64,000 nt of DNA from Shinella curvata (GTDB lineage: Bacteria > Pseudomonadota > Alphaproteobacteria > Rhizobiales > Rhizobiaceae). The translations under genes and the position numbers were made by a program. Below the pieces are notes generated by a model, which was given only the letters and a program-made list of their open reading frames with translations, was not told where the DNA came from and made no database searches. The stretch spans positions 890,053-954,052 of the forward strand of contig NZ_JALJCJ010000001.1 of the NCBI RefSeq assembly GCF_022899935.1. The letters are read 5' to 3'. Shown here one piece after another: positions 34,127 through 57,376 of this stretch (position 1 is its first letter; each line of letters starts with the position of its first letter).

Positions 34127-35605
34127 TTATGCCGTTGCCAGCGAGAGCGCGGCCAGAACCGCCGCCGACCGATGTTCGAGTTCCCGGGAGGCAATATCGC
34201 GCGCGACATTCTCGGCGACGAAGACGGCATGTTCCGTCACCTGCGGCAGGCCCATCAATTCGCCAAACATTCCGCGTGCGAGCGGGCCGGCGATGTAGAG
34301 CGATTCTGCGACCGCTCCGTCGGCGCCGACGGCATGGCTTTGCCGATCGACAGCCAGCCCGAGACCGACGGCATCGGCCCGCAGCACACCCGCCTTGCCG
34401 AGCCCGGTCAGGAACGGCTGGCTTGACAGGACGCCTCCATGCCCCGGCCCCGTCGTTACCACGACGGCATCATACTGGTCGTCGAACGTGCCGCGCCCAT
34501 GACGCAGCCGGAACCGAACCTCGATCGCATCGTCCGCCCCGCGCTGGACATCGCTGACGGACGCCGCATGGAAGGCGTACTGCCCATCGGCAATCCCCCG
34601 TTCTATGACAGCCTCGACCTGCGGCGCGATGCGGAAGCGGTGGACATCCCAATGGGAACGCAGGAAGCGCAACAGCCGGCGTTGCTCTATGACCGGCAAG
34701 GCTTGCCAGATGTTCCGGCCCTGCGCACGCAGCCGGTCGAAGACCGCATGCCATGTCACGCCGGCCCCCTCGGCGTCAGCAATGGTCTGCCGCACGCGCC
34801 GCAGCAATTCACGGGCCGACCGCGCCGGCGGCAGGGCAAAGTCGCCGAACGGATCCTGCGCAAGCAGGTTGTGACCGCGCGAACGCAGGCCGCGGCGGGA
34901 AATGGCGGTGATCGGCCCCGTGTGCCCGGCCGCATCCAGCGCGGCAATCACGTCCGCCGCCGTCAACCCCGCGCCGACGACGAGAACGCGATCCCCAGGC
35001 CGAATGCCGGACAAGGCGCCGGGCACCGTGGCATCCGGGACATAACGCGGATGGCCGGCCAACTGTCGCGTGAGCGCTGCGGGCGCCTGCGGACTTGGAT
35101 GCGTCGCCGCGAGGATAACGAGATCGGCGAGCAAGCTTGATCCGTCCTCGGCTTCGATGCGCCACCGTGCTCCGCTTTTCTCGATGGCGCGGACGAGATT
35201 GCGGTGATGCTCCACCGCGCCATCGTCAAGCAATGGCTGGAGCTGCGTGGTGACATAGCGGCCGAAGTCCGAGCGGCGGGCAAAAACATGTCCATCCGCC
35301 GTGGTCGCCTCCGCATCGTCCTTCAGCACATCCGTCTCGAAAAGCCAGCGCTGAAAATGTTCGTCGTCACCGGGAACGAGCGTCATGCGCGAAGCCGGCA
35401 CGTTGATTCGGTGGACAGGTTCGACGGTATCGTAAGCGAGGCCGCCACCAAGGACGGCGCGCGGCTCGTAGATCACGATTCGCGCCGCCTCCTGCGGCAA
35501 GAGCCGGACGAGATGGTAGGCAAGCGCCGCCCCCGTGAAGCCGCCTCCAACGATGGCGACGACAGGGCGATGGACGGAAGGAGGGGTCTTGGGCGCAGCA
35601 ACCAT
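34127..35605 (-). CDS. FAD/NAD(P)-binding oxidoreductase of the sulfur island
   Basis: A 492-residue protein with two dinucleotide-binding motifs. VVAIVGGGFTGAALAYHLV near the N-terminus fits the FAD-NAD(P)-binding family (NAD_binding_9), and VLVVGAGLTAADVIAALDAA near residue 205 is the second Rossmann fold. The YDAVVVTTGPG and LYIAGPLARGMFGE segments are as in flavin monooxygenases or N-hydroxylases. It follows the DszA-type monooxygenase gene by 28 bases, so it is part of that unit and could reduce flavin or oxidise an organosulfur compound. Exact activity unknown. Confidence 0.8.
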   Translation of the reverse strand: MVAAPKTPPSVHRPVVAIVGGGFTGAALAYHLVRLLPQEAARIVIYEPRAVLGGGLAYDTVEPVHRINVPASRMTLVPGDDEHFQRWLFETDVLKDDAEATTADGHVFARRSDFGRYVTTQLQPLLDDGAVEHHRNLVRAIEKSGARWRIEAEDGSSLLADLVILAATHPSPQAPAALTRQLAGHPRYVPDATVPGALSGIRPGDRVLVVGAGLTAADVIAALDAAGHTGPITAISRRGLRSRGHNLLAQDPFGDFALPPARSARELLRRVRQTIADAEGAGVTWHAVFDRLRAQGRNIWQALPVIEQRRLLRFLRSHWDVHRFRIAPQVEAVIERGIADGQYAFHAASVSDVQRGADDAIEVRFRLRHGRGTFDDQYDAVVVTTGPGHGGVLSSQPFLTGLGKAGVLRADAVGLGLAVDRQSHAVGADGAVAESLYIAGPLARGMFGELMGLPQVTEHAVFVAENVARDIASRELEHRSAAVLAALSLATA

Positions 35606-35633
35606 GGTTCAGCTCCAGCGGTTTCCCGCCATG

Positions 35634-37049
35634 TTAGGCACCGACCGATTTCAACGCCGGTACCGCCTCAGCCTCGCGGCGCTTCACCGCTTCGATATCG
35701 CGATAGCCGTCGGCCGGATGCGCCTTCGGCAGGTATGGTCCGTCGCCGAAAAGCTTTTCGCGCAATGTACCCTCCTTGTAAGCCGTCGGATAGGCGCCAC
35801 GCTTCTGCAGTTCCGGCACAATATGGGCAACGACGTCCTCGAAACTATCGGGTGTCACGGCATAGGCAAGATTGAAGCCGTCGACATCGGTGTCCTCGAC
35901 CCATTCCTGAAGAATATCGGCGATACGCTGCGGCGAGCCGACAAAGACCGGTCCCATGCCGCCGATACCGCCGAACTGCGCAAGCTCGTCGATCGTCCAC
36001 GACTTGTCGCCACCGGCAATATGCTCGACGAAGGAATGGATGGCGTTGGTCTCGATCTTCTCCACCACATCATCAGGGGCATACTGGCCGAAGTCGATGC
36101 CGCTCCAGCCGGACATGAAGGTGAGCGAGCCGTCATAGGAGACGTAGCTCTTGTAGTCCTCGAACTTCTTCTGCGCCTTCGCCTCCGTCTCGTCGGTGAT
36201 GACGGTGACCAGCGTGTAGATATAGACCTTCTTCGGATCGCGGCCGGCGGCGGCGATGCGCTGGCGGATATCGGCGACATAGGCTTTCAGCACGGATTTC
36301 GTGGGAGCGGCGACGAAGATGCATTCGGCATGCCCGGCCGCAAAGGCCTTGCCCGGACCGGAGGCGCCAGCCTGATAGAGCACCGGCGTGCGCTGCGGTG
36401 ACGGTTCGGTCAGGCCATAACCCGGCACCTCGAAGAACTTGCCCTTATGAGCAATCTCATGGACCTTTTCCGGATCGGTGAAGATGCGGTTGTTGCCGTC
36501 GCGCACGACCGCGCCCTCCTCCCAGGAGCCCTCCAGCAGCTTGTAGAGCACCTCGACATATTCGGCGGCAACCTCGTAGCGGTTGTCATGCCGGCGAAGG
36601 CCGCCCTGCCCGACATTCTTTGCCCCGCTCTCCAGGTAGGACGTAACGATATTCCAGCCGACGCGGCCTTTGGAATGATGATCCGCCGTCGCAAGGCGAC
36701 GAGCGAAGGTATACGGGTGCTCGAAGGAGGTGGAGGCCGTGATGCCGATGCCGAGATGCTTCGTCGCAAGCGCGATGGGAGCCGCCAGCTGCAAGGGATC
36801 ATTGACCGGGATTTGCGCGGCCTGATGGATCGCGTGATAGTTCGAGCCCTTGTAGACGTCGTAGTAGCCGATGACATCGGCGATGAAGATGCCGTCGAAA
36901 ATGCCACGCTCAAGGGTGCGGGCGAGATCCTGCCAATAGTCCAGGTCCTTGTATTTGAAGGACTTGTCGCGTGGATGGGCCCACAGGCCCGGTGACTGGT
37001 GGCCGACGCAGTTCATGTCGAAGGCGTTGAAACGGATGTGGCGTGCCAT
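35634..37049 (-). CDS. DszA/NtaA-type flavin-dependent monooxygenase 1
   Basis: A 471-residue luciferase-like monooxygenase of the NtaA/SnaA/DszA group, which uses FMNH2 and O2 supplied by a separate reductase. Recognisable parts are FNAFDMNCVGHQSPGLWAHP, FDGIFIADVIGYYDVY, KGRVGWNIVTSYLESGAKN, TPVLYQAGASGPGKAFAAGH and DVDGFNLAYAVTPDSFEDV. Relatives oxidise sulfones or alkanesulfonates or aminopolycarboxylates. Surrounding SfnB-, CysE- and MetY-type genes point to sulfur scavenging. GGAG seven bases upstream sets the start. An AT-rich element and a terminator for the previous unit lie just upstream, so it has its own promoter. Confidence 0.88.
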   Translation of the reverse strand: MARHIRFNAFDMNCVGHQSPGLWAHPRDKSFKYKDLDYWQDLARTLERGIFDGIFIADVIGYYDVYKGSNYHAIHQAAQIPVNDPLQLAAPIALATKHLGIGITASTSFEHPYTFARRLATADHHSKGRVGWNIVTSYLESGAKNVGQGGLRRHDNRYEVAAEYVEVLYKLLEGSWEEGAVVRDGNNRIFTDPEKVHEIAHKGKFFEVPGYGLTEPSPQRTPVLYQAGASGPGKAFAAGHAECIFVAAPTKSVLKAYVADIRQRIAAAGRDPKKVYIYTLVTVITDETEAKAQKKFEDYKSYVSYDGSLTFMSGWSGIDFGQYAPDDVVEKIETNAIHSFVEHIAGGDKSWTIDELAQFGGIGGMGPVFVGSPQRIADILQEWVEDTDVDGFNLAYAVTPDSFEDVVAHIVPELQKRGAYPTAYKEGTLREKLFGDGPYLPKAHPADGYRDIEAVKRREAEAVPALKSVGA

Positions 37050-37118
37050 TGGTATCTCCGGCGTCTCTGGAATGCCTCGCGGCATCGATTTCACCCGACG
37101 ATAACGCTTGCCGCCCAC

Positions 37119-37155
37119 AAATACAGAAATTCTATCTTTTATATAGATTAATTTC
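37119..37155 (-). promoter_or_regulatory. AT-rich sulfur-regulon element A
   Basis: Seventy bases upstream of monooxygenase 1. On the plus strand it begins AAATACAGAAA, one base, then TCTATCTTTTATAT, and ends AGATTAATTTCC. The first 26 positions match element B (47187) at 25. The inner TCTAT-N7-ATAGA dyad resembles LysR-type sites. This is the best-defined copy of the motif found before each sulfur unit. Confidence 0.6.
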
Positions 37156-37177
37156 CGAAATGACTTTTCACCGCTCG

Positions 37178-37209
37178 AAAAAAGGCCGCAACCCCGAGAG
37201 ATTGCGGCC
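37178..37209 (-). terminator. Intrinsic terminator of the dioxygenase-cysE-sfnB unit
   Basis: On the minus strand an eight-pair perfect stem (GGCCGCAA / TTGCGGCC, ten-base loop) is followed directly by TTTTTT. It lies 30 bases after the SfnB-type stop and isolates that unit from monooxygenase 1. Confidence 0.9.
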
Positions 37210-37239
37210 AGGCGACCACCCCCACCACGAGGGTAGATT

Positions 37240-38454
37240 TCAGAGCGCGCCGTTGCGCGGCGGCGCCACACCGTTCAGGTGATAGTTGCCGACAACGTGG
37301 TATTTCCAGCGCACCGGATCGTGCAGCGTGTGCGTGCGCGCATTGCGCCAGTGGCGCTCCAGATTAAGGCCACGCTTGGTGGCGGAAGTTCCCGCCAGCT
37401 CGAACAGGACATTGGTCGCGTCGATGGCAAGCTCTGTCGTCAGCACCTTCGCGGCGGCAACGGCGAGTGTGGCGGCAACGGAATTCTCCTGGCTGAGATT
37501 GACCTGCGCCAGATCGACCTTTCGCCCTGCCCGCTCCAGCACCGCCTCGGCCGCCTCGATACGGATGGCCAGTTCACCGATGCGTGAAATGGTCAGTGGA
37601 TCGTCCGCCGCGCGCTCGACGCCGCTGTCCGTCCAGGGCCGCGCCTTGTCGCGCACATAGCCGATCGTCTCCTTCAGCGCCGCGCGTGCAATGCCGAGGT
37701 CGACACCCGCATGGATGATCTGGCCAACCGAGCCGATCGTGCCGGGGCGCTCGAACCCCTTCTGGTGCTGCACGACCGCGTCGGCCGGCACATAGACGTC
37801 GCGCAGGATCGTCGTGCCGCTGCCCGTGGTGCGCTGGCCGAAGCCGTCCCAGTCGTCGACGATCTCGATGCCATCCGTGTCGCGTGGCGCAAACGACATC
37901 GTCAGGCGCTCGCTCTCGTCGAGCGCGAAAATCGTCACCCAATGGGCGAAAAGCACGCCGGTGGAATAGAACTTACGGCCATTGATGCGGAAGCCAGCGC
38001 CATCGGGCGTGATGCGCGTATTGTAGTTGCCCACCGTCCGGGTGCCGACCTCGGACAGCGCATTGCCGAAACGGTCGCCTGCAAGCGCGCGACCGAAATA
38101 GAAGCGCTTTTGCGCGTCACTGCCGTCATGCCGCAAGGCCTCGAGAATGTAGAAATGGTTTTGCGGGATCTGGCCGATGGAGCTGTCGGCCTCCGAGAGG
38201 ATCGCCGTCACCTCGGCCAGGACTGCATTCGACACATCGATGCCGCCGAACTCGGCCGGCACGGTGATCGCAAGCAGGCCCGAGGCGGAGAGCCGGTCGA
38301 GCTCCTCATAAGGCAGCGCCCGCTCATAATCCCGGCGGCTGGCGCCGGCGACGAATTCGGCGGCCAGCGTGCGGGCAACGTCGAGCGCTTCTTCCTCGCT
38401 CGCAATGCGATGGGCGGCCTGTTGCTGTTCGGCGAGCTTGATGACGCTGCTCAT
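37240..38454 (-). CDS. SfnB/DszC-type oxidoreductase 1
   Basis: A 404-residue acyl-CoA-dehydrogenase-fold flavoprotein of the sulfur-acquisition SfnB/DszC group. Typical stretches are LLAITVPAEFGGIDVSN, FYILEALRHDG, GNALSEVGTRTVGNYNTRI, INGRKFYSTGVLFAHWVTIF, DDWDGFGQRTTGSGTTIL and the ending RNARTHTLHDPVRWKYHVVG. Such enzymes use FMNH2 and O2 to oxygenate sulfur compounds. AAAGGA precedes the ATG. It is third in a unit with the dioxygenase and CysE genes and is closed by a strong terminator. It is a paralogue of the genes at 41998 and 45875. Confidence 0.88.
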   Translation of the reverse strand: MSSVIKLAEQQQAAHRIASEEEALDVARTLAAEFVAGASRRDYERALPYEELDRLSASGLLAITVPAEFGGIDVSNAVLAEVTAILSEADSSIGQIPQNHFYILEALRHDGSDAQKRFYFGRALAGDRFGNALSEVGTRTVGNYNTRITPDGAGFRINGRKFYSTGVLFAHWVTIFALDESERLTMSFAPRDTDGIEIVDDWDGFGQRTTGSGTTILRDVYVPADAVVQHQKGFERPGTIGSVGQIIHAGVDLGIARAALKETIGYVRDKARPWTDSGVERAADDPLTISRIGELAIRIEAAEAVLERAGRKVDLAQVNLSQENSVAATLAVAAAKVLTTELAIDATNVLFELAGTSATKRGLNLERHWRNARTHTLHDPVRWKYHVVGNYHLNGVAPPRNGAL

Positions 38455-38485
38455 GACGGGTCCTTTCAAAGGCGAGGCCAGAGCC

Positions 38486-39334
38486 TCAGATGATATATTC
38501 AGGCTCACTGACGCTCTGATCCATGGTGACGCCCGGCAATGCCGTGTGCCGCCGGCCGACCGTCCGCGCGGGAACACCGACGACGGAGCTGTAAGGTGCG
38601 ACGGGTGACACCACGACGCTGCCAGCGCCGACCTTGGCGCCGATCCCAATCTCGATATTGCCGAGGATTTTTGCGCCAGCACCGATCAGCACGCCGCGAC
38701 GCACTTTCGGGTGGCGATCGCCCGTCTCCTTGCCCGTGCCGCCGAGCGTGACGTTCTGGAGGATCGAGACCTCGTCCTCCACAACCGCGGTCTCGCCGAT
38801 GACGAGACCGCTGCCATGATCGAGCATGACACCACGTCCGACGACAGCTGCCGGGTGGATGTCGATGCCGAAGGCTTCCGAAATCCGGCTCTGGATGTGT
38901 CGGGCCAGGTGCTTGCGGCCGTTCGCCCAGAGCCAGTGTGCGATGCGGTAGCCTTGCAGCGCTGAAAAACCCTTGAAGTAGAGGAAGGGCGTCAGCACCT
39001 CGGCATTGCTCGGATCACGATCCTTCACCGCCTGGAGATCGGCTGCCGCCGCGCCCAGCAGGCCCGGCCGGTCCATATAGGCGCCGTGGATCAGAGCCAG
39101 CAGCTCGTCGCGGTCGATATCGTGGTCAGCAAGCTTGATGGCCAGCCGGTGTGACAGCGCGTGGCCGAATCCGGCATGCATCAGCACGGCCGAATTCATC
39201 GCCCGCGCCAGCGCGGTATCGCGGTGGACGGCGGCATTCGCTTCCAGCCGCAGCGTATCCCAGAGCGCGGAGACCTCCCGGCGGGCGGCGTCCTCGACGG
39301 GGAGAAAGACAATGTTGCTTTCCTGTCCTTGCAT
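38486..39334 (-). CDS. cysE: Serine O-acetyltransferase
   Basis: A 282-residue CysE that makes O-acetylserine from serine and acetyl-CoA, the carbon acceptor for sulfide in cysteine synthesis. The helical N-terminal domain (LALIHGAYMDRPGLL) precedes the left-handed beta-helix of hexapeptide repeats. Catalytic residues lie in VGRGVMLDHGSGLVIGETAV and GTGKETGDRHPKVRRGVLIG. Length is normal. Its placement between a dioxygenase and an SfnB-type gene suggests a sulfur-starvation-inducible isozyme rather than the housekeeping copy. In some bacteria O-acetylserine or its isomer is also the inducer of CysB. Confidence 0.93.
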   Translation of the reverse strand: MQGQESNIVFLPVEDAARREVSALWDTLRLEANAAVHRDTALARAMNSAVLMHAGFGHALSHRLAIKLADHDIDRDELLALIHGAYMDRPGLLGAAAADLQAVKDRDPSNAEVLTPFLYFKGFSALQGYRIAHWLWANGRKHLARHIQSRISEAFGIDIHPAAVVGRGVMLDHGSGLVIGETAVVEDEVSILQNVTLGGTGKETGDRHPKVRRGVLIGAGAKILGNIEIGIGAKVGAGSVVVSPVAPYSSVVGVPARTVGRRHTALPGVTMDQSVSEPEYII

Positions 39335-39375
39335 GGAACGACCCTCGTGACGGCAGGTGCTGCAGCTCTCGTTAT

Positions 39376-40416
39376 TCAGGCCTTGACCGGTTTTTCCAGA
39401 AGATGGAGCAGGTCGGCGTGGTGCTTTGCGGCAACATCGGGATGCGAGCGCAGACGGCTCTTCAGATGATTGATGCCGACTTCGCGGAAGATGGGATTGA
39501 GCGGATCGACCGTGACGCCGCGTTCGGCACGCTTGAGCTCCTCGGGCAAGGGAATGACGGGGATCGTCGCGTCGTAGCGAGCGCCGAGGAAGAAGGCGAC
39601 GGAGAAACGCTCCACGCCGGCCGGCGGCGTGACCACGTCATGCACGTCCGCGCGCACGAAACCGTTTGTCGCCAGCTCGAGAAGCTCGCCGCTGTTGATG
39701 ATGAAGGTGCCGGGCACCGGCGGCGCCTCGATCCAGACGCCCTCCTCCGTGCGGATGCGCAGGCCCGGGGTCGTATCCTGCAACAGCACGGTTACGAAGC
39801 CGCCATCCTTGTGCGCTCCAACACCCTGATCGCTGCCGGCAGCCTCACGGCCGGGATAACGGATGATCTTCAGGAGCTGCGAGGGCGACGGCTCGTAGAT
39901 ATCGGCAAAGGCATTTTCCGGCTGGCCGAGCGCAAGCGCGATGGCCTTCAGGACGTCGATACCGATGCGGGTGACTTCCGCCTGGTAGCGCAAAAGCAGC
40001 GGCTTCAGCTCCGGCAGGGCCTCCGGCCACTGGTTGGGGCCGAAAAGCCGGTTCCATGGCGTCTCGGGCCCGGATGCCACCGGCGTGCCTTCCGTATTGA
40101 TGTCGAGCTGCTCACGCCAATCCTGCTCGCCGCGTGTGCGCTCGTAGCCGGCGCGATTGTAGCCCCGGAAATGCGAGGACTTCACCATCTCGATCGCCAG
40201 CTTGTCGGCTTCCGGCAGCGCGAAAAAGCGTTTCGAAGCCGCCAGCACATCGTCGATCAAACTTTGCGGCACACCGTGGCCGGTGAGATAGAAGAAGCCG
40301 TGATCGTGCAGGACACGCGTCAGCTCCCTGACGAAGCCCTGCCGCTCCGTGGCGTCACCATAGAAGCGGGAAAAGTCGATCGTCGGCAGGTGGACAGGTT
40401 TCGTATGGATGGTCAT
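39376..40416 (-). CDS. Isopenicillin-N-synthase-like 2-oxoglutarate/Fe(II) dioxygenase
   Basis: A 346-residue non-haem iron oxygenase. The facial triad is His202 and Asp204 in GAHKDGG and His259 in RADVHDVV; Arg270 and Ser272 in RFSVAFF should bind 2-oxoglutarate. An N-terminal DIOX_N-like segment (VLHDHGFFYLTGHGVP) confirms the IPNS family. In sulfur regulons such enzymes release sulfite or open sulfur compounds, by analogy with TauD, but this is a different subfamily and its substrate is unknown. It is first in the unit with cysE and SfnB 1, 41 bases ahead of cysE. Confidence 0.87.
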   Translation of the reverse strand: MTIHTKPVHLPTIDFSRFYGDATERQGFVRELTRVLHDHGFFYLTGHGVPQSLIDDVLAASKRFFALPEADKLAIEMVKSSHFRGYNRAGYERTRGEQDWREQLDINTEGTPVASGPETPWNRLFGPNQWPEALPELKPLLLRYQAEVTRIGIDVLKAIALALGQPENAFADIYEPSPSQLLKIIRYPGREAAGSDQGVGAHKDGGFVTVLLQDTTPGLRIRTEEGVWIEAPPVPGTFIINSGELLELATNGFVRADVHDVVTPPAGVERFSVAFFLGARYDATIPVIPLPEELKRAERGVTVDPLNPIFREVGINHLKSRLRSHPDVAAKHHADLLHLLEKPVKA

Positions 40417-40561
40417 GGGCTCTCGCTCCTCCAGAACATGTTTGTTTCGTGCGCGTGGCAGGCGGGGCGGAACGGGTCTTCGATGCCGATCGAACCTGTC
40501 GCCGAGATGCGCATCGCCGCAAGCCTTTGAATGAAATCAGGTGGCCCCAAACCTATTGTCG

Positions 40562-40597
40562 ATAAATTCTATAGGCAAAGAAATTTATTCCATCTAT
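40562..40597 (-). promoter_or_regulatory. AT-rich sulfur-regulon element D
   Basis: About 150 bases upstream of the dioxygenase start, in the 208-base gap before it. Contains ATAAATTCTATAG (40562-40574), whose reverse complement occurs exactly in element F (56124-56136) in the same orientation relative to its gene. AAATTCTAT is shared with element A. Confidence 0.45.
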
Positions 40598-40624
40598 CAG
40601 GCGGCTGCGAAAAAAGACCTGATG

Positions 40625-41989
40625 TCACGACTGCCCCGCCCCGGCACGAAACCCTGCCGCCGGATGGCGGGCCGGCAACCGATCACCCTCGCCAAACAAC
40701 CGGTTGCGCAGGCTTGCCTCGCCATAGGCCGTCTTGTAGCGCCCACGCTCCTGCAGCAACGGCACGACGAGAGCGATGAAATCCTCATAGCTTTCCGGCG
40801 TCACCGTTCGTGCGAGATTGAAACCATCCACCTCACCTTCGTCGATCCATGCCTCGAGTGCGTCGGCAACCTGGTTGGCATCCCCGACGATGAGCGGGTA
40901 ACGCCCACCGAGCGCCATGCCCGAGAGGATGGTGCGCTTCGTCCAGCCGCGCTCACGCGCCAGATCGACAGAAGTCTGGACGAAATTCCCTTTGCCGTAG
41001 GTGATGGGCTCGTCGAGCTCATATTGCGAGAAATCGATGCCGGTGCCGGCTGAGAAATGCGCAAGCCCCGCCTCCGGGCTGGCATGGCGCGCATAGTCCT
41101 CGTATTTTTCCCGTGCCGCCTTTTCCGTGCGGTCCACCACGACGGTAAGGCCCGCAAAGATGCGCACGTCCGTGGGTCGCCGCCCCGCCTCAGCCGCCCC
41201 CTGCCGGATCGCGCGCGAGGCCGTGCGGGCAACCGCGATTTCCGGCGACGAGATGAAAACGCATTCGGCGTGCCGTGCGGCAAACTGTCGGCCACGACCG
41301 GATGTGCCGGCCTGATAGAGAACGGGCGTACGCTGGCGGGACGGTTCCGAGAGATGATAGCCCTCCGCCTTGAAGTACGTGCCCTCGTGCCGGATTTTCC
41401 GCACCTTGGCCGGATCGGCATAGACGCGTGTGGCACGGTCGCGCCGCACGGCATCGTCATCCCAGCTGCCTTCCCACAGCGCATAGAGCAGATCGAGACA
41501 TTCATCGGCGCGGTCGTAGCGGCTGTCGTGCTCAGCGAGTGCAACCTGTCCCACGGCGCGCGCAGCGCTGTCGAGATAGCCTGTCACGATGTTCCAGCCG
41601 ATGCGGCCGTCCGTCAGGTGATCCAGCGTTGAGAGGCGCCGAGCGAAAATATAGGGCTCCTCGGCATGCACGTTGACGGTCACGCCGAAGCCGAGCCCCT
41701 TCGTCACCGCCGCCATCGCGGAGACCAGCATCAGAGGATCGTTGACCGGAAGCTGGATGGATTCGCGCAGCGTCAGGTCGACCGACTGCTGGTAGACGTC
41801 ATAGACCCCGACGATATCGGCAAGGAAGAGCCCGTCGAACAGCCCACGCTCCAGGGTCGCGGCGAGCGATGTCCAGTAGTCCAGCCTGGTGTAGTCGCTC
41901 GAACGGTCGCGAGGATGCGTCCAGAGCCCGTGATTGATGTGGCCGACGCAGTTCATGTTGAACGCGTTGAGCAGGATTTCCTTTGCCAT
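40625..41989 (-). CDS. DszA/NtaA-type flavin-dependent monooxygenase 2
   Basis: A 454-residue luciferase-like monooxygenase, clear paralogue of the enzyme at 35634-37049: LNAFNMNCVGHINHGLWTHP, FDGLFLADIVGVYDVYQQ, DGRIGWNIVTGYLDSAARA, TPVLYQAGTSGRGRQFAARH, VDGFNLARTVTPESYEDF. It probably uses FMNH2 from a separate reductase to cleave an organosulfur compound. It starts eight bases after the SfnB 2 gene with no good Shine-Dalgarno, implying translational coupling. It is last in the unit that begins at 47107. No clear terminator follows. Confidence 0.87.
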   Translation of the reverse strand: MAKEILLNAFNMNCVGHINHGLWTHPRDRSSDYTRLDYWTSLAATLERGLFDGLFLADIVGVYDVYQQSVDLTLRESIQLPVNDPLMLVSAMAAVTKGLGFGVTVNVHAEEPYIFARRLSTLDHLTDGRIGWNIVTGYLDSAARAVGQVALAEHDSRYDRADECLDLLYALWEGSWDDDAVRRDRATRVYADPAKVRKIRHEGTYFKAEGYHLSEPSRQRTPVLYQAGTSGRGRQFAARHAECVFISSPEIAVARTASRAIRQGAAEAGRRPTDVRIFAGLTVVVDRTEKAAREKYEDYARHASPEAGLAHFSAGTGIDFSQYELDEPITYGKGNFVQTSVDLARERGWTKRTILSGMALGGRYPLIVGDANQVADALEAWIDEGEVDGFNLARTVTPESYEDFIALVVPLLQERGRYKTAYGEASLRNRLFGEGDRLPARHPAAGFRAGAGQS

Positions 41990-41997
41990 GGACCGGT

Positions 41998-43263: not shown

Positions 43264-43292
43264 GGATCTTTTGCCATCTGTCTGAGAAGAAG

Positions 43293-48705: not shown

Positions 48706-48730
48706 GACACTTCTCCTTCGATGAGCGCCC

Positions 48731-49808: not shown

Positions 49809-50809
49809 CAGAGAATTCCCTTCTGCCAGCCGAGCAGGCGATCACGTGCCACGAAGAGCAGGCGCACAAGGCCGGCGCAGATCAGCGCCATGATGATCAG
49901 GGCGGCATAGACGTTGGCATAGGCCGAATAGGCCGTGTTGAACTGGAGATACCAGCCAAGGCCGAACTTGGCGCCGAGCATCTCGGCGACGACCAGAACC
50001 GCGAAGGAATAGTAGAGCCCCATGAAAATACCGACGAAGACGTTCGGCAGCGAGGCCGGGATCGCGACCTTGAAGATCAGGAAGCGATTGTCGGCGCCGA
50101 GCGTGCGGGCAACGTCGTAGAAGGAGCGGTTGACCTGGCTGACCCCTGCCGCCGTCAGGATCGCGACCGGAATGCCGGAGGCCAACGCCACGAGGAAGAT
50201 CGAGGCATGGAAGGTCGATGGAAAAATGAAGAAGGTGCAGGGTATCCAGGCGCTTGCCGGAACCGGGCCGATCAGTTTCAGAAGCGGCATGCCCCAATAG
50301 GCAAAACGCTTCGACCAGCCGAGCGCCACACCGCCGGCAAAACCTACGAGGATGCCCGAAAAGAAACCCAGGCCCCAGAGCCGTCCGGTATAGGCGATGC
50401 AGATCAGCAGGCGGTCCCAATCAGTCAGATAGACATGCAGCAGGCCCTGCGGCGGCGAGAAGAACGGCTTTGGCAGCCAGCCGAGCTTGGCCGTCAACAC
50501 TTCCCAGACGGCAAGCCACAGGCCGAGCACGATGAACCACGGCCCATAGTGCACGAGCGTACGGCCAAAGCCGCCGAGCCGGTGCACCGTCACGGACAGG
50601 GCGAGAAAAATCCCCGCGCCGGCGAGCATGATGATGGCAAAGAGCTCCGTTGCGCCCCAGCTGATGACATCGGGCAGACCGTAGCTCAGCGCCGCGGTCA
50701 AAAACCACGTGCCGGCGGCGAAAAGCCCATTGCGCCAGATGGTTGCGACCGGCAGAGCAAGAGATCGCTCTCCTGCCCTGCCATAGGTGTTTTCGACCGC
50801 GGCACTCAT
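49808..50809 (-). CDS. ssuC: Sulfonate/nitrate-type ABC permease
   Basis: A 333-residue permease, longer than classical SsuC (about 260) because of an N-terminal extension with two extra hydrophobic segments (IWRNGLFAAGTWFLTAALSY and ELFAIIMLAGAGIFLALSVT). The core follows the SsuC/TauC pattern, with the coupling loop in FYDVARTLGADNRFLIFKVA and then VAEMLGAKFGLGWYLQF. It starts four bases after ssuA ends. The ligand is inferred from family. Confidence 0.88.
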   Translation of the reverse strand: MSAAVENTYGRAGERSLALPVATIWRNGLFAAGTWFLTAALSYGLPDVISWGATELFAIIMLAGAGIFLALSVTVHRLGGFGRTLVHYGPWFIVLGLWLAVWEVLTAKLGWLPKPFFSPPQGLLHVYLTDWDRLLICIAYTGRLWGLGFFSGILVGFAGGVALGWSKRFAYWGMPLLKLIGPVPASAWIPCTFFIFPSTFHASIFLVALASGIPVAILTAAGVSQVNRSFYDVARTLGADNRFLIFKVAIPASLPNVFVGIFMGLYYSFAVLVVAEMLGAKFGLGWYLQFNTAYSAYANVYAALIIMALICAGLVRLLFVARDRLLGWQKGIL

Positions 50810-50813
50810 GGCA

Positions 50814-51848
50814 TCACGCGAAGATGTCGATGGTGATGCGGTTGGCGATCTCCGCCGGATCGGTGCCCGCATCGATGACGCCGGTGAGCTTCAGATCCTC
50901 GTAGCCGATCTGCACTTCCTTCAAGAGATCCTTGCCAAACCAGTGATCGTGATAGGTGAAGGCGGCGAGAACTTCGGTGAGGTCCTCAAGCGACAGGCCG
51001 GGCTTCAGCGTGTCGAAATACCACTTGGCAACTTCGTCCGGGTGTTTGGCGGTGTACTGGTGGATTTCGAGATTGGCAGCGGCGACGCGCTTGATGGCGT
51101 CCTTGTTGGCTTCATAATAATCGCCGTTGACGCCGAGCACGCAGCAGACGCGGTCCTTGAACGTGCCGGTCTGGGTATCCGCCACACGGCGGAAACCATG
51201 TTTCTTCTCGTAGGAATAGGCCCAGGGGTCCATATGCGCGACGGCATCCGCCTCGCCCTTCAGAACACCCTCGGCGACGAGATCGAAGGGGAAGACCTTC
51301 CAGGTGACATCGGTTTCCGGGTTGAGGCCGGCCTTGGCGAGCGCGACCGAGAAGGCGACGCGCGAGGGCGACATGACGTCGAAGGTACCGATCGTCTTGC
51401 CCTTGAGGTCGGTCAGCGTCTTAATGTCGGAATCCGGCTGGACGAGGACGCTCTGGCAGCCGCCATGCGAACCGGCGAACAGACGCACATCGAAGCCCTG
51501 CTCGATCGGCTTCAGCCAATCATACAGCAGGCCCGGGCCGGCCTCGGCCTTGCGGGTGGCAAGCGCCTGGATGAGCGTCTGGCCGCTGGCGCCCTGATAG
51601 AACAGTTCCACATCCAGCCCGTGCTTGGCATAGATGCCCTTGGACAGGCCGAAGCCGACGGGCGAATGGCAGGCGGCCACTTCGGTCCATTCCAGCTTGA
51701 TCGGAATGAGATTGCCGGCAATGGCGTAGCGCGTGGAACGCGCGCCGATCACGCCGGCCGTGGCGGCCACCGCCGTCACGCCAGCCGCCTTGATCAGGCC
51801 ACGGCGCGAAAGGCCTCTGGAAAGAATGGATTCGGGTTGCTGGCTCAT
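50814..51848 (-). CDS. ssuA: Sulfonate/nitrate-type ABC binding protein, Tat-exported
   Basis: A 344-residue periplasmic binding protein with a twin-arginine signal (LSRRGLIKAAGVTAVAATAG), which suggests export in folded form. The mature sequence matches the SsuA/TauA/NMT1 fold: CHSPVGFGLSKGIYAKHGLD, YQGASGQTLIQALATRKAEA, KGKTIGTFDVMSPSRVAF. It heads the ssuACB-membrane protein-metY unit, with element C 40-75 bases upstream. Aliphatic or aromatic sulfonate is the probable ligand, by context only. Confidence 0.88.
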   Translation of the reverse strand: MSQQPESILSRGLSRRGLIKAAGVTAVAATAGVIGARSTRYAIAGNLIPIKLEWTEVAACHSPVGFGLSKGIYAKHGLDVELFYQGASGQTLIQALATRKAEAGPGLLYDWLKPIEQGFDVRLFAGSHGGCQSVLVQPDSDIKTLTDLKGKTIGTFDVMSPSRVAFSVALAKAGLNPETDVTWKVFPFDLVAEGVLKGEADAVAHMDPWAYSYEKKHGFRRVADTQTGTFKDRVCCVLGVNGDYYEANKDAIKRVAAANLEIHQYTAKHPDEVAKWYFDTLKPGLSLEDLTEVLAAFTYHDHWFGKDLLKEVQIGYEDLKLTGVIDAGTDPAEIANRITIDIFA

Positions 51849-51884
51849 CTGTTGTCCCCTGACAAATTGATGCAGCTAGCCTAT

Positions 51885-51924
51885 CGAGAAATTATATTGT
51901 TTATAGATTTTATAGATTATTTCC
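51885..51924 (-). promoter_or_regulatory. AT-rich sulfur-regulon element C
   Basis: Upstream of the ssuA-type gene. On the plus strand it starts AGAAATT, as element A does, contains TTTATAGATT and ends TATAGATTATTTCC, close to the TATAGATTAATTTCC end of element A. TTTTATAGAT (51908-51917) recurs in element E. Confidence 0.5.
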
Positions 51925-52072
51925 CTCGACATGTGGAGAATATTCTTTCATCGCCACGCGGTCGTTTGGATAGGCGTCCTCACGCAGGGGCTCACCCCGG
52001 CACCGGCAGGTCAGTCCGGCGCCGTTGACCCGCCACAACCATTGAACCATATTGCCGCGAAAGGAGACCTCC

Positions 52073-52375
52073 ATGATTACAGGCTCTCAGTGCCGGGCAG
52101 CGCGAGCACTCGTCGAATACAGCCGGGAGCGCCTCGCAAAAGCCTCAGGTATCGATATCGAAACAATCGCAAGTTTCGAGCGCAAGCTCGCCAGGCCGGA
52201 TGACCGGGTCATCGCGGTCCTGCAGGCGTCGCTCGAGACGGCAGGCGCCGTCTTCCTGCCTGACGGAGAGCATGGCGGCATCGGCATTCGCCTGAAATTC
52301 AATCGCTCCGAAACGCGGCGCATCGCCACCCTGGAAGGTGAAGGCGGCATCGTGGCGCAGGACGACGTTCCTTAA
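52073..52375 (+). CDS. Small XRE-type HTH protein
   Basis: A 100-residue cytoplasmic protein. Residues 5-60 form an XRE/Cro-like helix-turn-helix (QCRAARALVEYSRERLAKAS, then IDIETIASFERKLARPDD). The rest (GAVFLPDGEHGGIGIRLKF) is the usual short tail of small rhizobial XRE regulators. AAGGAG seven bases before the ATG. It stands alone between the leftward ssu unit and the rightward transporter, 224 bases from ssuA, and could regulate either. No ligand domain. Confidence 0.82.
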   Translation: MITGSQCRAARALVEYSRERLAKASGIDIETIASFERKLARPDDRVIAVLQASLETAGAVFLPDGEHGGIGIRLKFNRSETRRIATLEGEGGIVAQDDVP

Positions 52376-52426
52376 GCTGCCAACCATCAGCGCTCCGTTT
52401 TCCCATTGAAGGTTTCCGTTCTAACT

Positions 52427-52449
52427 CCGGCAGCACCCTGCCGGTTCAA
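52427..52449. repeat. Short hairpin element, copy 2
   Basis: Arms CCGGCAG and CTGCCGG with a CACC loop. The 3' side CCCTGCCGGTTCAA is identical over 14 bases to copy 1 at 24593-24606, and both copies have TTTCCGT a little upstream. It sits 52 bases after the XRE gene and lacks a U-tract. Confidence 0.4.
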
Positions 52450-52660
52450 CCCGGTTTGACGGCGAGCGCAACCCAGCCACGCCTCCACCTGACCCGAAGA
52501 CGCTGTCCTGAAAGCATGACGCGCACGCCGCTCTTCCTCGCCCTGCGAGGCGGCGTTGCAAGCATCCAGCCATCTGCAATCCGCAAATCGAAACAGGACG
52601 GTTCGGCGAGAAGCAATTTGCTTCGAACAGCATAAATTTGGACGCCGATTTCTTAAGTGC

Positions 52661-52692
52661 ACTAATTTTATAGATAACATAGATATATCTTC
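52661..52692 (+). promoter_or_regulatory. AT-rich sulfur-regulon element E
   Basis: Contains TTTTATAGAT (52666-52675), shared with element C, followed by AACATAGATATATCTTCC. It lies 66-97 bases upstream of the transporter binding-protein gene, at the spacing seen for elements A, B and F. Confidence 0.42.
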
Positions 52693-52757
52693 CATCACTT
52701 GGCGAAACCGCCCTGCGACGGAAGCTCGGTTTTTTTTGAAAATGGGGACATTTCAAT

Positions 52758-53789
52758 ATGATGAAGCATAATACCTTCCGGCGGGCGATCCAGTCGGCCG
52801 CAGCCGCTGCCTTCCTCGCCACCACCATGCTTTCCGGTCTCGCCCATGCCGGCCCGACGCTCGACAAGATCAATCAGCGCGGCGCCATCAAGGTCGGCGT
52901 CGGCACGACGCCCGGCTTCTTCGCGCCCAGCAGCGACGGCAAGTGGCAGGGCTTCTTCGTCGATTTCGGCCGCGCGCTGTCCATCGCCGTCTTCAACACG
53001 CCCGACAAGGTGGAGTTCACCTCCTCCTCGCCGCAGCAACGCCTTCCCGCCCTCCAGAGCGGCGAGTTCGACATCCTGCTTTCGGGCGTGACGGTCACGG
53101 CAACCCGCGCCTTCAAGCTCGGCTTCCATTTCGGCCCGACGGTCTTCTATGACGGTCAGGGCATTCTGGTGCGCAAGGATCTCGGCGTGACCAAGGCCGC
53201 CGACCTCGACGGCGCGACCATCGGCGCACAGAGCGGCACGACGGGTGAATTGAACGTCGCCGACTTCTTCCGCAAGACCGGCAAGACCTTCACGCCCGTC
53301 ACCATCGAGGATACCGGGCAGTTCATCGATGCGCTGGAATCCGGCCGCGTCGACGCGATCACGCAGGATTCGTCCGATCTCGTCGGCAAGCGCACCCAGC
53401 TGAAGAAGCCGGACGATTACGTCCTGCTGCCCGAGCGCCTCTCCAAGGAACCACTCGCACCAGCCATTGCCGGCGGCGACGACCGCTGGCTTGAGCTGGT
53501 AAACTGGACGGTGAACGCCACCATCCAGGCCGAAGAATGGGGCATCACCTCGGCGAATGTGGACCAGTTCCTGGAATCGGAAGATCCGGCCATCCAGCGC
53601 TTCCTCGGCGTCGATCCGTCCTTCGCCAAGGATATCGGGCTCGATCCGAAATGGGCCTACAACATCATCAAGACCGTCGGCAATTACGGCGAGATCTATG
53701 ACCGCAACCTCAAGCCGCTCGGCTGGGACCGCGGCTATAACAGCCTGTGGACCGATGGCGGCCTGCTCTATTCGCCGCCGTTCCGTTGA
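52758..53789 (+). CDS. Amino-acid-type ABC binding protein of the sulfur island
   Basis: A 343-residue periplasmic protein with a signal peptide ending SGLAHA. It is an AapJ/BztA relative of the protein at 22260-23279: IKVGVGTTPGFFAPSSDGKW, FVDFGRALSIAVFNTPDKV, LSGVTVTATRAFKLGF and the matching end WAYNIIKTVGNYGEIYDRN. The ligand pocket differs (SGVTVTATRAF against SRQTTHTFSRD), so a different ligand is expected, perhaps a sulfur-containing amino acid such as cystine or cysteate, given the neighbours. The stop overlaps the next start (TGATG). Weak Shine-Dalgarno (GGGGA, long spacing). Confidence 0.9.
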   Translation: MMKHNTFRRAIQSAAAAAFLATTMLSGLAHAGPTLDKINQRGAIKVGVGTTPGFFAPSSDGKWQGFFVDFGRALSIAVFNTPDKVEFTSSSPQQRLPALQSGEFDILLSGVTVTATRAFKLGFHFGPTVFYDGQGILVRKDLGVTKAADLDGATIGAQSGTTGELNVADFFRKTGKTFTPVTIEDTGQFIDALESGRVDAITQDSSDLVGKRTQLKKPDDYVLLPERLSKEPLAPAIAGGDDRWLELVNWTVNATIQAEEWGITSANVDQFLESEDPAIQRFLGVDPSFAKDIGLDPKWAYNIIKTVGNYGEIYDRNLKPLGWDRGYNSLWTDGGLLYSPPFR

Positions 53790-54991
53790 TGTCTGACAGG
53801 CGCGTGTTCCGCACCGCCATTGTGCCGGGTCCCCCACGACCCGGCACGTTTGGCAAGATCCGCGCCTGGTGGGGCGGCTGGCCGATCGGCCAGCTTGCCT
53901 TCCTGGCGGCACTTGCGTTCCTTGGCTGGCTGTTCGTCGCGAACGTGCTGGGAACCATGGCGCGCATCGGCATCCTGCCCGGCTTCGGCTTCCTCTCCAG
54001 CTCCGCCAATTTCGAGATCGGCGAAAGCGCCATCGCCTTTCGCGCGGGCGATACCTATCTGAGGGCCATCTCCGCCGGCCTTCTCAACACCCTCAAGGTC
54101 TCGCTGCTCGGCTGCGTGCTCGCCACCATTCTCGGCGTCTTCATCGGCGTTGCCGGCCTCTCGCGCAATCTGCTGCTGTCAGGCCTCGTGCGCTGGTTCA
54201 TCGAGATTACCCGCAACACGCCGCTGCTGTTGCAGCTCTTCTTCTGGATGGCGCTCGCCAAGGCTTTGCCCGCGCCACGCCAGGCGCCTGCTTTGTTCGA
54301 TGCGGTCTTTCTCACCAATCGCGGCGTCTATATCCCCTCCCTGTCGCTGGAAGGCGCGCCGTTCGGCGTGCTCGCGGCTTTTGCCCTTGCCGGCGCACTT
54401 GGCGGTGCGCTCCTCCTCGCACTTCGCCTTTCCGGGCGGCTGACACGTCGCACCGGTACCGCAGCGATCGTCCTGTCCGTCGCCGCAATCCTCCTGCTGC
54501 TCACGCTTTCCGGAGCCCGGCCCGTTGCACAGGCGCCCGCCCTTTCCGGCTTCAACATTCGCGGCGGGCTCAATCTCTCGCCGGAATTCGCCGCCCTTCT
54601 GATCGGCCTTGTGGTGAAGTTCTCCGCCCTCATCGCCGAGATCGTGCGCGCCGGCATCCAGTCGGTCGGCGCAGGTCAGTGGGAAGCCGCCCGCGCGCTC
54701 GGCCTACATGACGGCCAGATCATCCGCCTCGTCGTGCTGCCGCAGGCGCTGCGCGTTATAACACCGCTGACCACATCGAGTTATCTCGATCTCACCAAGG
54801 ATTCGAGCCTCGCCGTCGCCATCGGCTTTCCCGATCTCGTCAGCATCATCAACACCACCGCCAACACAACCGGCCAGTCGATGGAAGCCCTGATCATCCT
54901 GATCGGCGCCTTCCTCACCATCAACCTCGCACTTTCCGCCCTCATGAATATCTACAACAACCGCGTCGCGCTCCGGGGCTCGAGCCGATGA
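53789..54991 (+). CDS. Amino-acid-type ABC permease, AapQ type (sulfur island)
   Basis: A 400-residue permease with about eight hydrophobic segments and the coupling loop in QWEAARALGLHDGQIIRLVV. The AapQ features ANFEIGESAIAFRAGDTYLR and WFIEITRNTPLLLQLFFWMA are present. It starts on the last base of the binding-protein stop and its end overlaps the next gene by ATGA. No attenuator separates it from the binding-protein gene, unlike the paralogous operon at 19.9-23.3 kb. Confidence 0.9.
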   Translation: MSDRRVFRTAIVPGPPRPGTFGKIRAWWGGWPIGQLAFLAALAFLGWLFVANVLGTMARIGILPGFGFLSSSANFEIGESAIAFRAGDTYLRAISAGLLNTLKVSLLGCVLATILGVFIGVAGLSRNLLLSGLVRWFIEITRNTPLLLQLFFWMALAKALPAPRQAPALFDAVFLTNRGVYIPSLSLEGAPFGVLAAFALAGALGGALLLALRLSGRLTRRTGTAAIVLSVAAILLLLTLSGARPVAQAPALSGFNIRGGLNLSPEFAALLIGLVVKFSALIAEIVRAGIQSVGAGQWEAARALGLHDGQIIRLVVLPQALRVITPLTTSSYLDLTKDSSLAVAIGFPDLVSIINTTANTTGQSMEALIILIGAFLTINLALSALMNIYNNRVALRGSSR

Positions 54992-56043
54992 CGACAGCCT
55001 CCCCTCGCCTCGTCCAGACCCTGCGCACCGGCCTTTTCGGCACGCGCGCCAACACGCTGATCACGCTCGCAACGCTGGTGTTTCTGTCGCAGATCCTGCC
55101 ACCGCTGTTCCGCTGGGCGGTGCTCGACGCCACTTTCGTCGGCGATGCGGCGGCCTGCACCCGCGAAGGTGCCTGCTGGGCCTTCGTGACCGCGAAGCTG
55201 CGCTTCATCCTCTTCGCCTTCTATCCGACCGAACTCATCTGGCGGCCGGCGCTGATCATCCTGCTCCTCGCCGCCATCCTCACGGCAAGCGCCCTGCCCC
55301 GTTTCTGGGGACGCTCCCTGCTCGTCGCATGGCCGCTCACCATCCTGGCTTGCTGGCTTCTGATGCAGGGCACGTTCACGTCGACGCCCATCGCCTCGAA
55401 CCAATGGGGCGGCCTGCCGGTAACGCTTTTCGTCTGGGCGGTCTGTTTTGCCGCGGCGACGCCGATCGCCGTGCTGCTGGCGCTCGCCCGCCGTTCGACG
55501 CTCGGAGGCCTAAGAACCTTCTCGGTGCTCTATATCGAACTGATGCGCGGCACGCCGATGGTCGGCATCCTCTATGTCGCCATGCTGATCCTGCCCATGG
55601 CGCTGCCCGACGCGATCTCGCTCGACAAGATGCTGCGCGCCATCGTCATGATCACGCTGTTCTGGGCGGCCTATATAGCCGAAGTCATCCGCGCCGGGCT
55701 GCAGGCCATTCCCATCGGTCAGCGCGAAGCGGCCACCGCGCTTGGCCTCGGCTATTGGCGCACGCAACGGCTCGTCATCCTGCCGCAGGCCTTTCGCATC
55801 GTCATTCCCGGCATGGTGAACCTCGCCATCGGCTTCCTGCTCGCCACGTCGCTGCTCGCCGTCATCGGCATCTTCGACCTGCTCAACGCCGCGCGTGCAT
55901 CGGCCGCCGATCCGCAATGGCTGGGCTTTTACAACGAGGCCTATCTCGTCGTCGCCGTCATCTACTTCGTGATCTGCTTCGGCGCGTCACGCTACAGCCG
56001 GTGGCTGGAGAAGCGGCTCGCAGCAGGGTCGAAACACGCGTGA
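54988..56043 (+). CDS. Amino-acid-type ABC permease, AapM type (sulfur island)
   Basis: A 351-residue permease with the AapM arrangement: FVGDAAACTREGACWAFVTA, WGGLPVTLFVWAV and coupling loop REAATALGLGYWRTQRLVIL. It completes a binding protein plus two permeases. As in the first cluster there is no ATPase gene; the next gene, 163 bases on, is the SsuD-type monooxygenase with its own element F. The transporter must use an ATPase from elsewhere. Confidence 0.9.
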   Translation: MTTASPRLVQTLRTGLFGTRANTLITLATLVFLSQILPPLFRWAVLDATFVGDAAACTREGACWAFVTAKLRFILFAFYPTELIWRPALIILLLAAILTASALPRFWGRSLLVAWPLTILACWLLMQGTFTSTPIASNQWGGLPVTLFVWAVCFAAATPIAVLLALARRSTLGGLRTFSVLYIELMRGTPMVGILYVAMLILPMALPDAISLDKMLRAIVMITLFWAAYIAEVIRAGLQAIPIGQREAATALGLGYWRTQRLVILPQAFRIVIPGMVNLAIGFLLATSLLAVIGIFDLLNAARASAADPQWLGFYNEAYLVVAVIYFVICFGASRYSRWLEKRLAAGSKHA

Positions 56044-56123
56044 GACGCGAAAAGAAGCACCATCGGTCGGCAACGAAAAATCCTAACATGCGCTGCAGGA
56101 AGAAATATAATTCCTTACTGAAA

Positions 56124-56136
56124 CTATAGAATTTAT
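56124..56136 (+). promoter_or_regulatory. AT-rich sulfur-regulon element F
   Basis: CTATAGAATTTAT, 71 bases upstream of the SsuD-type gene, in an AT-rich stretch from 56101. It equals the reverse complement of 40562-40574 (element D) over 13 bases and has the same orientation relative to its gene. Confidence 0.5.
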
Positions 56137-56206
56137 TATTCTGCTATCGACCGGACGGGCCGAAACCTGTCCTCTGATCGACAGCCCGCACTGCAGGATG
56201 ACATTC

Positions 56207-57376
56207 ATGACCCAAACCGACCAGCCTCTCGATTTCCTCTGGTTCATTCCAAGCTCCGGCGATGGTTCCTATCTCGGTTCCGACGATCTCGCCCGCCCGG
56301 CAGATCCCGGTTACTTTCGCGAGATCGCGGTCGCCGTCGACCGGCTGGGCTATTCGGGCGTGCTGATTCCCGTGGGGGCGGCTTGCGAAGAATCCTTCGT
56401 GCTGGCCGCCGATCTTGCCGCCCGCACGGAGCGGTTGAAATTTCTCGTGGCGATCCGCCCCGGCACCGCCACGCCGGCGTACTACGCCCGCCTCGCCGCG
56501 ACGCTCGATCGCGTTTCGAACGGCCGCCTGCTGCTCAACATCGTGGTGGGCGGCAGCGCGCAGGAGCTTGCCGGCGACGGCATCTTCCTGCCCCACGACG
56601 AACGGTATGATCATGCCTCGGAATTCTTCCAGGTGTTTAACGAGCTGATCGAAACCGGTCATTCCACGCTCGATGGCAAATATATCAAGGCCATCGACGC
56701 CAAGCTGGGACTGCCACCCGTGCAGCAGCCGCGCCCGCCGATCTATTTCGGCGGTTCCTCGGATGCGGCCATCGATTTCGCCGGCGGCCTCGTCGACAAG
56801 TACCTGACCTGGGGCGAGCCACCGGCGCAGGTGGCCGAAAAGATCGCCCATGCCCGCAAGGCCGCCGCTGCCAGAGGCCGGCAAGCCTCCTTCGGCATCC
56901 GCCTGCACTTCATCGTGCGCGAGACGGACGACGAGGCGTGGGAAGCGGCCGACCGGCTGATCTCGAAGCTTTCCGACGAGGCCATCGCCTCGGCGCAGGA
57001 AGTGCTGACGAAGAATTCCGATTCCGTCGGCCAGGCGCGCATGGTGGCGCTGCACAACGGCCGGCGCGACAAGCTCGAAGTTTCGCCGAACCTCTGGGCC
57101 GGCATCGGCCTGGTGCGCTCCGGCGCCGGTACGGCATTGGTCGGCTCGCCGGAAACCGTTGCCGCGCGCCTTCGCGAATACCAGGCGCTGGGCATCGACA
57201 CCGTCATCGCATCGGGCTACCCGCATCTCGAGGAAGCCTACCGGGTCTCCGAGCTGCTCTTCCCAGCACTCGGTCTGCCCGGCCCGCGAGGCCAGCTCCG
57301 CTCCTCCTTCGGCGCCCATCAGGTCTTCGGCGGCGGCGGCCATGGCGGCAACGTCAAACTCACCTCGGCGTCCTGA
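56207..57376 (+). CDS. ssuD: SsuD-type alkanesulfonate monooxygenase
   Basis: A 389-residue FMNH2-dependent monooxygenase that should convert alkanesulfonates to aldehyde and sulfite. Marks of the SsuD family are [78 protein letters not shown], and a Gly/His-rich tail (GGGGHGGN). The start at 56207 has GCAGGA eight bases upstream; an ATG nine bases earlier is inside that signal. The unit is monocistronic with a strong terminator. No ssuE reductase gene is adjacent. Confidence 0.92.

Follow-up and report, generated by a model that had tools for sequence, protein, structure and literature searches.

The window analyzed here is a stretch of 64,000 nucleotides from Shinella curvata (contig C11, positions 890053-954052; the genome has 6.07 Mb and 19 contigs). 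It contains an organosulfur island at window positions 34127-57376 with six transcription units on both strands, and the elements A to F preceding these units all represent the same 25-bp palindrome, ATAnTCTATAnAnTnTATAGAnTAT. Computation yielded this dyad, the set of genes it precedes, its conservation, and its link to R1, a gene located on another contig than the window (C12:138291-138752). The comparisons suggest that the CymR-like Rrf2 family protein R1, and not a CysB-type activator, most likely controls the dyads. Very probably, A to F are operators at which R1 would repress when sulfur is ample and from which it would be released under sulfur limitation, in a regulon of about 18 promoters. 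The original prediction had assumed a single activator of the LysR/CysB type encoded outside the window. One regulator encoded outside the window is retained; the family and probably also the activator sign are not, as the evidence points to a CymR-like Rrf2 protein.

A 25-bp dyad ahead of sulfur genes

The palindrome is located 47-138 bp ahead of the six start codons, in agreement with the proposal that one element heads all units. Operator A (37127-37151, minus strand, 28.9 bits) precedes the NtaA/DmoA-type monooxygenase gene 35634-37049 with 77 bp to the ATG, operator D (40555-40579, minus strand, 24.5 bits) the 2-oxoglutarate (2OG)-Fe(II) oxygenase gene 39376-40416 with 138 bp, operator B (47195-47219, minus strand, 24.7 bits) the SfnB-like gene 45875-47107 with 87 bp, and operator C (51896-51920, minus strand, 31.2 bits) the ssuA-like gene 50814-51848 with 47 bp. 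On the plus strand, operator E (52663-52687, 24.1 bits) was found 70 bp before the ATG of the gene 52758-53789 for an amino-acid ATP-binding cassette (ABC) binding protein, and operator F (56110-56134, 23.5 bits) lies 72 bp before the start codon of ssuD (56207-57376). These scores derive from a 12-region matrix that has all six sites in its training set. A further palindrome, GAAGCAATTTGCTTC, is present at 52610-52624, 38 bp upstream of operator E.

The best 26-mer shared by A and B (at 37119 and 47187) is identical at 25 of 26 positions, as had been noted before, and the sequence common to C and E was recovered as the 11 bases ATTTTATAGAT. D and F do have 13 bases, CTATAGAATTTAT, in common in gene orientation; however, this orientation carries no information because the element is a dyad. 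The 10-mer TTTTATAGAT alone proves nothing either, because the reversed control is as frequent in the genome (3 copies) as the 10-mer itself, which occurs in C, in E, and in a second sulfur locus.

The 12-region matrix was obtained by expectation-maximization on the upstream regions of A to F and six regions of the second sulfur locus, and the palindrome was found in all 12. Its score of 151.8 compares to 45.2 +/- 3.9 (maximum 55.1) in 40 dinucleotide shuffles and to 44.2 +/- 4.6 (maximum 53.8) when 12 regions were drawn at random 30 times from 54 other upstream regions. Twenty draws restricted to the 30 regions with the highest AT content among the 54 gave 42.9 +/- 4.6 (maximum 50.8); this pool (53.7% GC) does not quite reach the AT content of the 12 regions (51.9% GC). 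The six window regions alone resulted in the same dyad, with a log-likelihood of 79.3 versus 34.9 +/- 2.8 (maximum 40.3) in 40 dinucleotide shuffles. A GC-matched background was used instead of an AT-rich one, with which the motif finder gave GC-rich strings at most widths. In the matrix, the half-sites TAY-N7-RTA occupy positions 7-9 and 17-19 and are set in AT-rich flanks. A LysR-type T-N11-A reading of A and B, made by eye, was dropped in favor of the wider 25-bp dyad common to all 12 regions.

The second sulfur locus (L096, C12:131000-150000) was located through the third copy of TTTTATAGAT. It contains two Rrf2 genes and an SfnB-like gene and further encodes FAD/NAD(P)-binding proteins, a sulfate-type binding protein recognized by eye, and a taurine binding protein (458.2 bits, cut-off 304.25). 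At a threshold of 17 bits, the six-site matrix yielded 6 hits at 5 places of this locus, reaching up to 32.0 bits, and missed site I. Elsewhere it gave one hit each in L111, L123, and L144, two in L124, and two overlapping ones in L143; the places in L111, L124, L143, and L144 precede sulfur genes. L123, L124, L143, and L144 had been chosen with motifs built from a larger set of sites and thus are not blind tests. No hits were obtained in five unrelated loci (L095 and L112-L115, 84 kb), taken around the best CysB-like match and other Rrf2 genes.

A genome-wide profile search was insensitive, with a best E value of 0.08 among 12 rows from 7 places, and an IUPAC pattern was used instead. Allowing up to 3 mismatches, this degenerate pattern matched 33 places versus 8 for the reversed control. 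With at most 1 mismatch there were 8 places and none for the control, so that the motif is rare and exceeds the background rate. Sites already used or seen account for 12 of the 33 places (A to F, G, I, J, K, M, and the metQ site). Among the remaining 21, one overlaps E and two overlap each other; scored with the 12-region matrix, 7 separate places are at or above 20 bits. Untrained sites of at least 20 bits precede genes for SsuA (315.4 bits), MsuE (238.7 bits), and SfnB (603.8 bits), all over the family cut-offs, and for an amino-acid binding protein scoring 147.6 bits in the cystine model (cut-off 312). The untrained metQ-like site at C12:130046 (20.7 bits) belongs to a MetQ/NlpA protein over the cut-off (234.6 bits). 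The gene for another FAD/NAD(P)-binding protein has a site of 19.5 bits ahead of it; the other further places are weaker and, judged by eye, mostly without sulfur link.

Operator F overlaps by two bases the TATAAT at 56106-56111 of a promoter-like CTAACA-17-TATAAT (56083-56111), the best of 7 promoter-like sites, a number barely above the shuffles (3.5 +/- 1.8). By sequence, operator C overlaps a TATAAT by one base; the promoter scan listed none overlapping operators A to E. An overlap as at F and C would be expected for a repressor. The same TATAAT at the dyad edge would be seen if the elements were no more than AT-rich core promoters, standing out in a GC-rich genome and serving no regulator of their own. 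We regard this as highly improbable in view of the maxima of the random and AT-richer upstream sets, the concentration of the targets on sulfur genes, and the far fewer matches of the reversed pattern.

The Rrf2 gene R1 and its co-occurrence with the dyad

R1 belongs to the Rrf2 family (PF02082, 121.5 bits, cut-off 30). Its nearest solved chain is CymR 2y75 (E value 3.8e-17), 3t8r was also found, and the CymR model is its highest-scoring equivalog model. The cut-offs for IscR (TIGR02010, 73.2 versus 207.55 bits), RirA (NF008886, 41.4 versus 193 bits), and NsrR were missed; a separate RirA is encoded in the genome (285.2 bits). Cysteines C91, C100, C103, and C109 are invariant in all 31 aligned distinct homologues, many of them of one genus, and because of this invariance the signal of R1 may be an iron-sulfur (Fe-S) cluster or thiol state. 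Linkage, co-occurrence, and operator type suggest that R1 is the protein binding the dyads.

In a survey of 199 genomes of the order including our own, R1 was called at E <= 1e-42 and sites at up to 1 mismatch. The 34 genomes with R1 contain 77 sites versus 2 reversed-control matches, the 165 genomes without R1 87 versus 108. Outside the own family, the corresponding numbers are 49 versus 2 and 83 versus 101. Sites outnumber controls in 21 of the 34 R1 genomes. Since the genomes are related, p-values of co-occurrence do not represent independent tests. Among 41 relatives including our own, R1 is present in 22 (75% identity or more across no fewer than 138 residues), 21 of which also contain sites; in G016, only contig-edge pieces of R1 were found. 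The other 18 lack R1, three of them having relatives of 40-46% identity, and only G027 exceeds the control (8 versus 4). Within the genus, 20 of 21 genomes including our own have 1-12 sites at up to 1 mismatch and no control sites.

In 8 of the 80 ssuD loci, no more than 10 kb separate R1 from ssuD. At 20 bits or more, the matrix trained on our genome gave 27 hits in the 167 kb of these loci, 20 hits in the 548 kb of the other loci in L004-L037, and 9 hits in the remaining 874 kb, 3 of which are from Enterobacter and Acinetobacter and may be chance. According to a crude gene caller, 48 of the 56 hits are intergenic, overlapping hits being counted singly. Conservation at orthologous units was seen in part in Shinella sp. 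CPCC 101442 (L004), the SsuD of which is 98% identical to that of the window. Here the orthologue of site C is found at position 5667 (27.1 bits) and site E is represented by overlapping sites at 6451 and 6460, but the F site is under 20 bits; the positions orthologous to A, B, and D are outside the L004 stretch compared.

A site of at least 16 bits within 250 bp before R1 was detected in 27 of 36 loci. These were all 20 loci of the own genus, in which the sites are nearly identical and one copy was in the training set, and 7 out of 16 outside the genus, where L174 and L209 represent the same genome and the sites of L005 and L008 are below 18 bits. Six distant loci were selected for carrying R1 (among them L207, L208, and L210 from one genus, and L209 and L212 from another family). 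In 5 of them, from two other families and with R1 of 62-80% identity, R1 is part of an island of the same type with SsuD, SfnB-, and NtaA-type genes and SsuABC- and/or MetNIQ-type transporters. The L207 island combines R1 with MetY, 2OG oxygenase, SsuABC, MetNIQ, two SfnB, SsuD, an NtaA-type enzyme, and an FAD protein. In L211, R1 is located away from such genes, yet a 21.6-bit site is present 32 bp before it.

In enterobacteria, the CysB/Cbl regulon jointly controls sulfonate, taurine, and sulfate uptake, and CysB activates such sulfur genes. Binding of a LysR-type, CysB-like activator to the elements would agree with this precedent, and a second dyad, GGAAT-N3-ATTCC-like, could be the site of such an activator. 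It is located just upstream of or overlaps several operators (window 56102-56114; L007, L012, L037, L015, L016, and L033). Before ssuD, ATTCCTTA-N6-CTATAGA occurs exactly in the window, L007, L012, and L037 and with one change in L004. Upstream of part of 40 hand-picked operators the GGAA/TTCC dyad is enriched (69.7 at width 13 versus a mean of 40.5 and a maximum of 49.8 in 12 shuffles). At width 15 it was found in 26 of the 40 regions, its spacing to the operators is variable, and ATTCC is also found within the E. coli tauA upstream region. The GGAA/TTCC dyad thus possibly represents an activator site. For the 25-bp elements themselves, a LysR-type activator is very unlikely. The dyad tracks an Rrf2 gene, the best genomic match to E. 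coli CysB is only 31% identical (106 bits, cut-off 436), and CysB (E <= 1e-50) was detected in only 7 of the 199 order genomes, none of which has R1 or a single site. CysB was rejected as dyad binder on these grounds; the 35 genomic matches of LysR proteins to CysB were not examined one by one. The CysB/Cbl regulon and the R1 regulon serve the same end, the former by means of a LysR activator of which no orthologue was found in the Shinella genome.

Beside R1, locus L096 encodes R2 (C12:141673-142079), a related Rrf2 gene that is split between two frames and has probable full-length relatives in same-genus genomes. The operators may belong mainly to R2 or to both genes. Genes that probably are relatives of R2 and have 43-46% identity to R1 occur in G004, G010, G011, G014, G015, and G018, in G014 and G015 about 3.3 kb from R1. 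Operator K is located downstream of R2 in our genome, and sites occur beside the R2 relatives of G011 and G015. However, operators are still present in our genome despite the split R2, and of 21 same-genus genomes 20 have a full-length R1, R2-like matches being less frequent. We therefore consider a leading or shared role of R2 unlikely.

Several observations weigh against R1 as the regulator of the proposed regulon. It stays below the CymR equivalog cut-off (NF047409, 81 versus 195 bits), and in relatives R2 could share the operators. Sites exceed controls in 21 of the 165 order genomes without R1, and 13 of the 34 R1 genomes have no site at up to 1 mismatch. The same-genus genome G006 has R1 and no sites. 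In site-less R1 genomes, divergent sites may have been missed or the motif may have drifted. Furthermore, 9 of the 36 loci lack a site before R1, in 4 of which R1 seemingly is inside an operon. Untrained sites above 20 bits at C14:470000 and C11:1210183 have no evident sulfur gene downstream, and a 28.1-bit site at position 9553 of L123 (C14:89552) is near a branched-chain-type ABC system. No NCBIfam model matched the binding protein of this system, which may import an organosulfur compound. Finally, the second dyad is found near many of the promoters and may bring in another regulator.

Transcription units of the island

The island encodes two NtaA/DmoA-type monooxygenases, two SfnB and one SfnB-like protein below the cut-off, MetY, and SsuD. 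Transport is represented by a MetQ-like protein, an SsuABC-like transporter (below cut-offs), and an amino-acid-type ABC system. A 2OG-Fe(II) oxygenase and an FAD/NAD(P)-binding protein were assigned by Pfam; CysE, MetI, and MetN were identified by eye from the translations. Unit A (34127-37049, minus strand) consists of the genes for the FAD/NAD(P)-binding protein (34127-35605, PF13454) and an NtaA/DmoA-family monooxygenase (35634-37049, TIGR03860, 540.6 bits, cut-off 279.7). Unit D (37240-40416, minus strand) encodes SfnB (37240-38454, 611.3 bits in the NCBIfam model, cut-off 430.9), a CysE-like serine O-acetyltransferase (38486-39334), and the 2OG-Fe(II) oxygenase (39376-40416, PF03171/PF14226). 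Unit B (40625-47107, minus strand) comprises an NtaA/DmoA monooxygenase, SfnB (607.3 bits, above the cut-off), MetQ-like, MetI, MetN, and the SfnB-like protein (45875-47107); the MetQ-like and the SfnB-like protein are below their cut-offs. In unit C (47344-51848, minus strand), a MetY-type sulfhydrylase (47344-48705, TIGR01326, 552.3 bits, cut-off 495.1) is combined with SsuB-, SsuC-, and SsuA-like transporter proteins (ssuA-like gene 50814-51848), which match sulfonate/nitrate ABC models below the cut-offs. Unit E (52758-56043, plus strand) encodes an amino-acid-type ABC binding protein (52758-53789) and two permeases, which match NCBIfam amino-acid ABC models and reach no equivalog cut-off; cystine as the substrate is a guess. 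Unit F (56207-57376, plus strand) is the gene for the SsuD alkanesulfonate monooxygenase (TIGR03565, 571.8 bits, cut-off 518.2).

Strong terminators had been thought to isolate several units. Terminator-like hairpins with T-runs do precede A (37184-37209) and B (47286-47313), but the overall number of such sites in 37000-56300 (16) is not above that of shuffles (13.5 +/- 3.6). Inside unit B, a terminator-like hairpin is located between metQ and sfnB (43293-43319), and the genes downstream may be attenuated. A small XRE-like gene (52073-52375; HTH_3 20.9 bits, below the 23-bit cut-off) is found between the divergent units C and E. It is an unlikely local regulator, being present only in L004 among the 80 ssuD loci. 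The window contains no Rfam matches and no ARAGORN genes.

Proposed regulation and relation to known systems

R1 dimers would bind about 18 promoter regions of the genome, nearly all of organosulfur or sulfur-transport genes. The targets would be genes for uptake of sulfonate, taurine, sulfate, and methionine, amino-acid-type ABC systems, SsuD/MsuE, SfnB, NtaA-type monooxygenases, and R1 itself. Operator placement and the precedent of CymR suggest that R1 most likely represses when sulfur suffices; under limitation it would release its operators and the units would open together. The signal may be an Fe-S cluster, a thiol or persulfide, or the O-acetylserine/cysteine-synthase state, perceived via the four invariant cysteines or a partner. 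The CysE of unit D would make O-acetylserine, the metabolite presumably tied to CymR release.

Fe-S regulators of the Rrf2 family carry cysteines in the region corresponding to that of R1; IscR has a three-cysteine pattern with a spacing unlike that of the four in R1. IscR, RisR, RirA, and NsrR share the family with R1, the targets of which are organosulfur genes. The Rrf2 protein RisR is reported to recognize GAC-N7-GTC (PMC9973013). Compared by eye, this site resembles the R1 dyad, assigned to R1 by linkage, in its 3-bp half-sites, 7-bp spacer, and register, whereas the half-site is GAC in place of TAY in Shinella. Genes reported to be under CymR control are cysK, the sulfonate genes (ssu), the methionine-to-cysteine genes, and those for cysteine uptake (PMC3828012). 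Its partner in the repression of ssu, cysK, and cysteine uptake genes is the cysteine synthase CysK, with which it forms a complex that controls binding (PMC9338935, PMC3828012); in B. subtilis, CymR is reported to bind no cluster (PMC9338935). CymR of Bacillus subtilis and Staphylococcus aureus resembles R1 in family, nearest structures, and target logic; unlike CymR, R1 is under the CymR cut-off, has four invariant cysteines, and occurs in Alphaproteobacteria. In Rhodococcus qingshengii, the genome of which lacks CysB, the Rrf2/CymR-annotated IGTS8_peg394 is a candidate for sulfur control detected only in dibenzothiophene culture (PMC8557817). It differs from R1 in not being encoded beside sulfur genes, and an operator is not described in the text covered. 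Among the matches listed, consisting of titles and abstract starts with thin coverage of subscription journals and thus no proof of novelty, none described control of these genes by an Rrf2 protein in Alphaproteobacteria.

The system most likely is an alphaproteobacterial, CymR-like sulfur regulon. It is a tentative and rather doubtful extension that R1 represents a new class of Rrf2 sulfur sensors with a four-cysteine site (Fe-S, zinc, or persulfide), which would repress a scavenging regulon in many members of the order in CysB's stead, the second dyad recruiting an activator at sulfonate promoters.

More than 95% of soil sulfur is organic, according to the abstract of PMC4267179. No CysB match (E <= 1e-50) was found in this soil bacterium, nor did 191 of the 198 other genomes of the order yield one. 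With the dyad and a named regulator gene at hand, it can be tested how this bacterium controls the scavenging of sulfonates, sulfones, and methionine. Sulfur roles are suggested for the FAD/NAD(P)-binding proteins, the 2OG oxygenase, and the ABC system of L123. Furthermore, our data suggest that Alphaproteobacteria have their own counterpart of the CymR-type solution found in Gram-positives.

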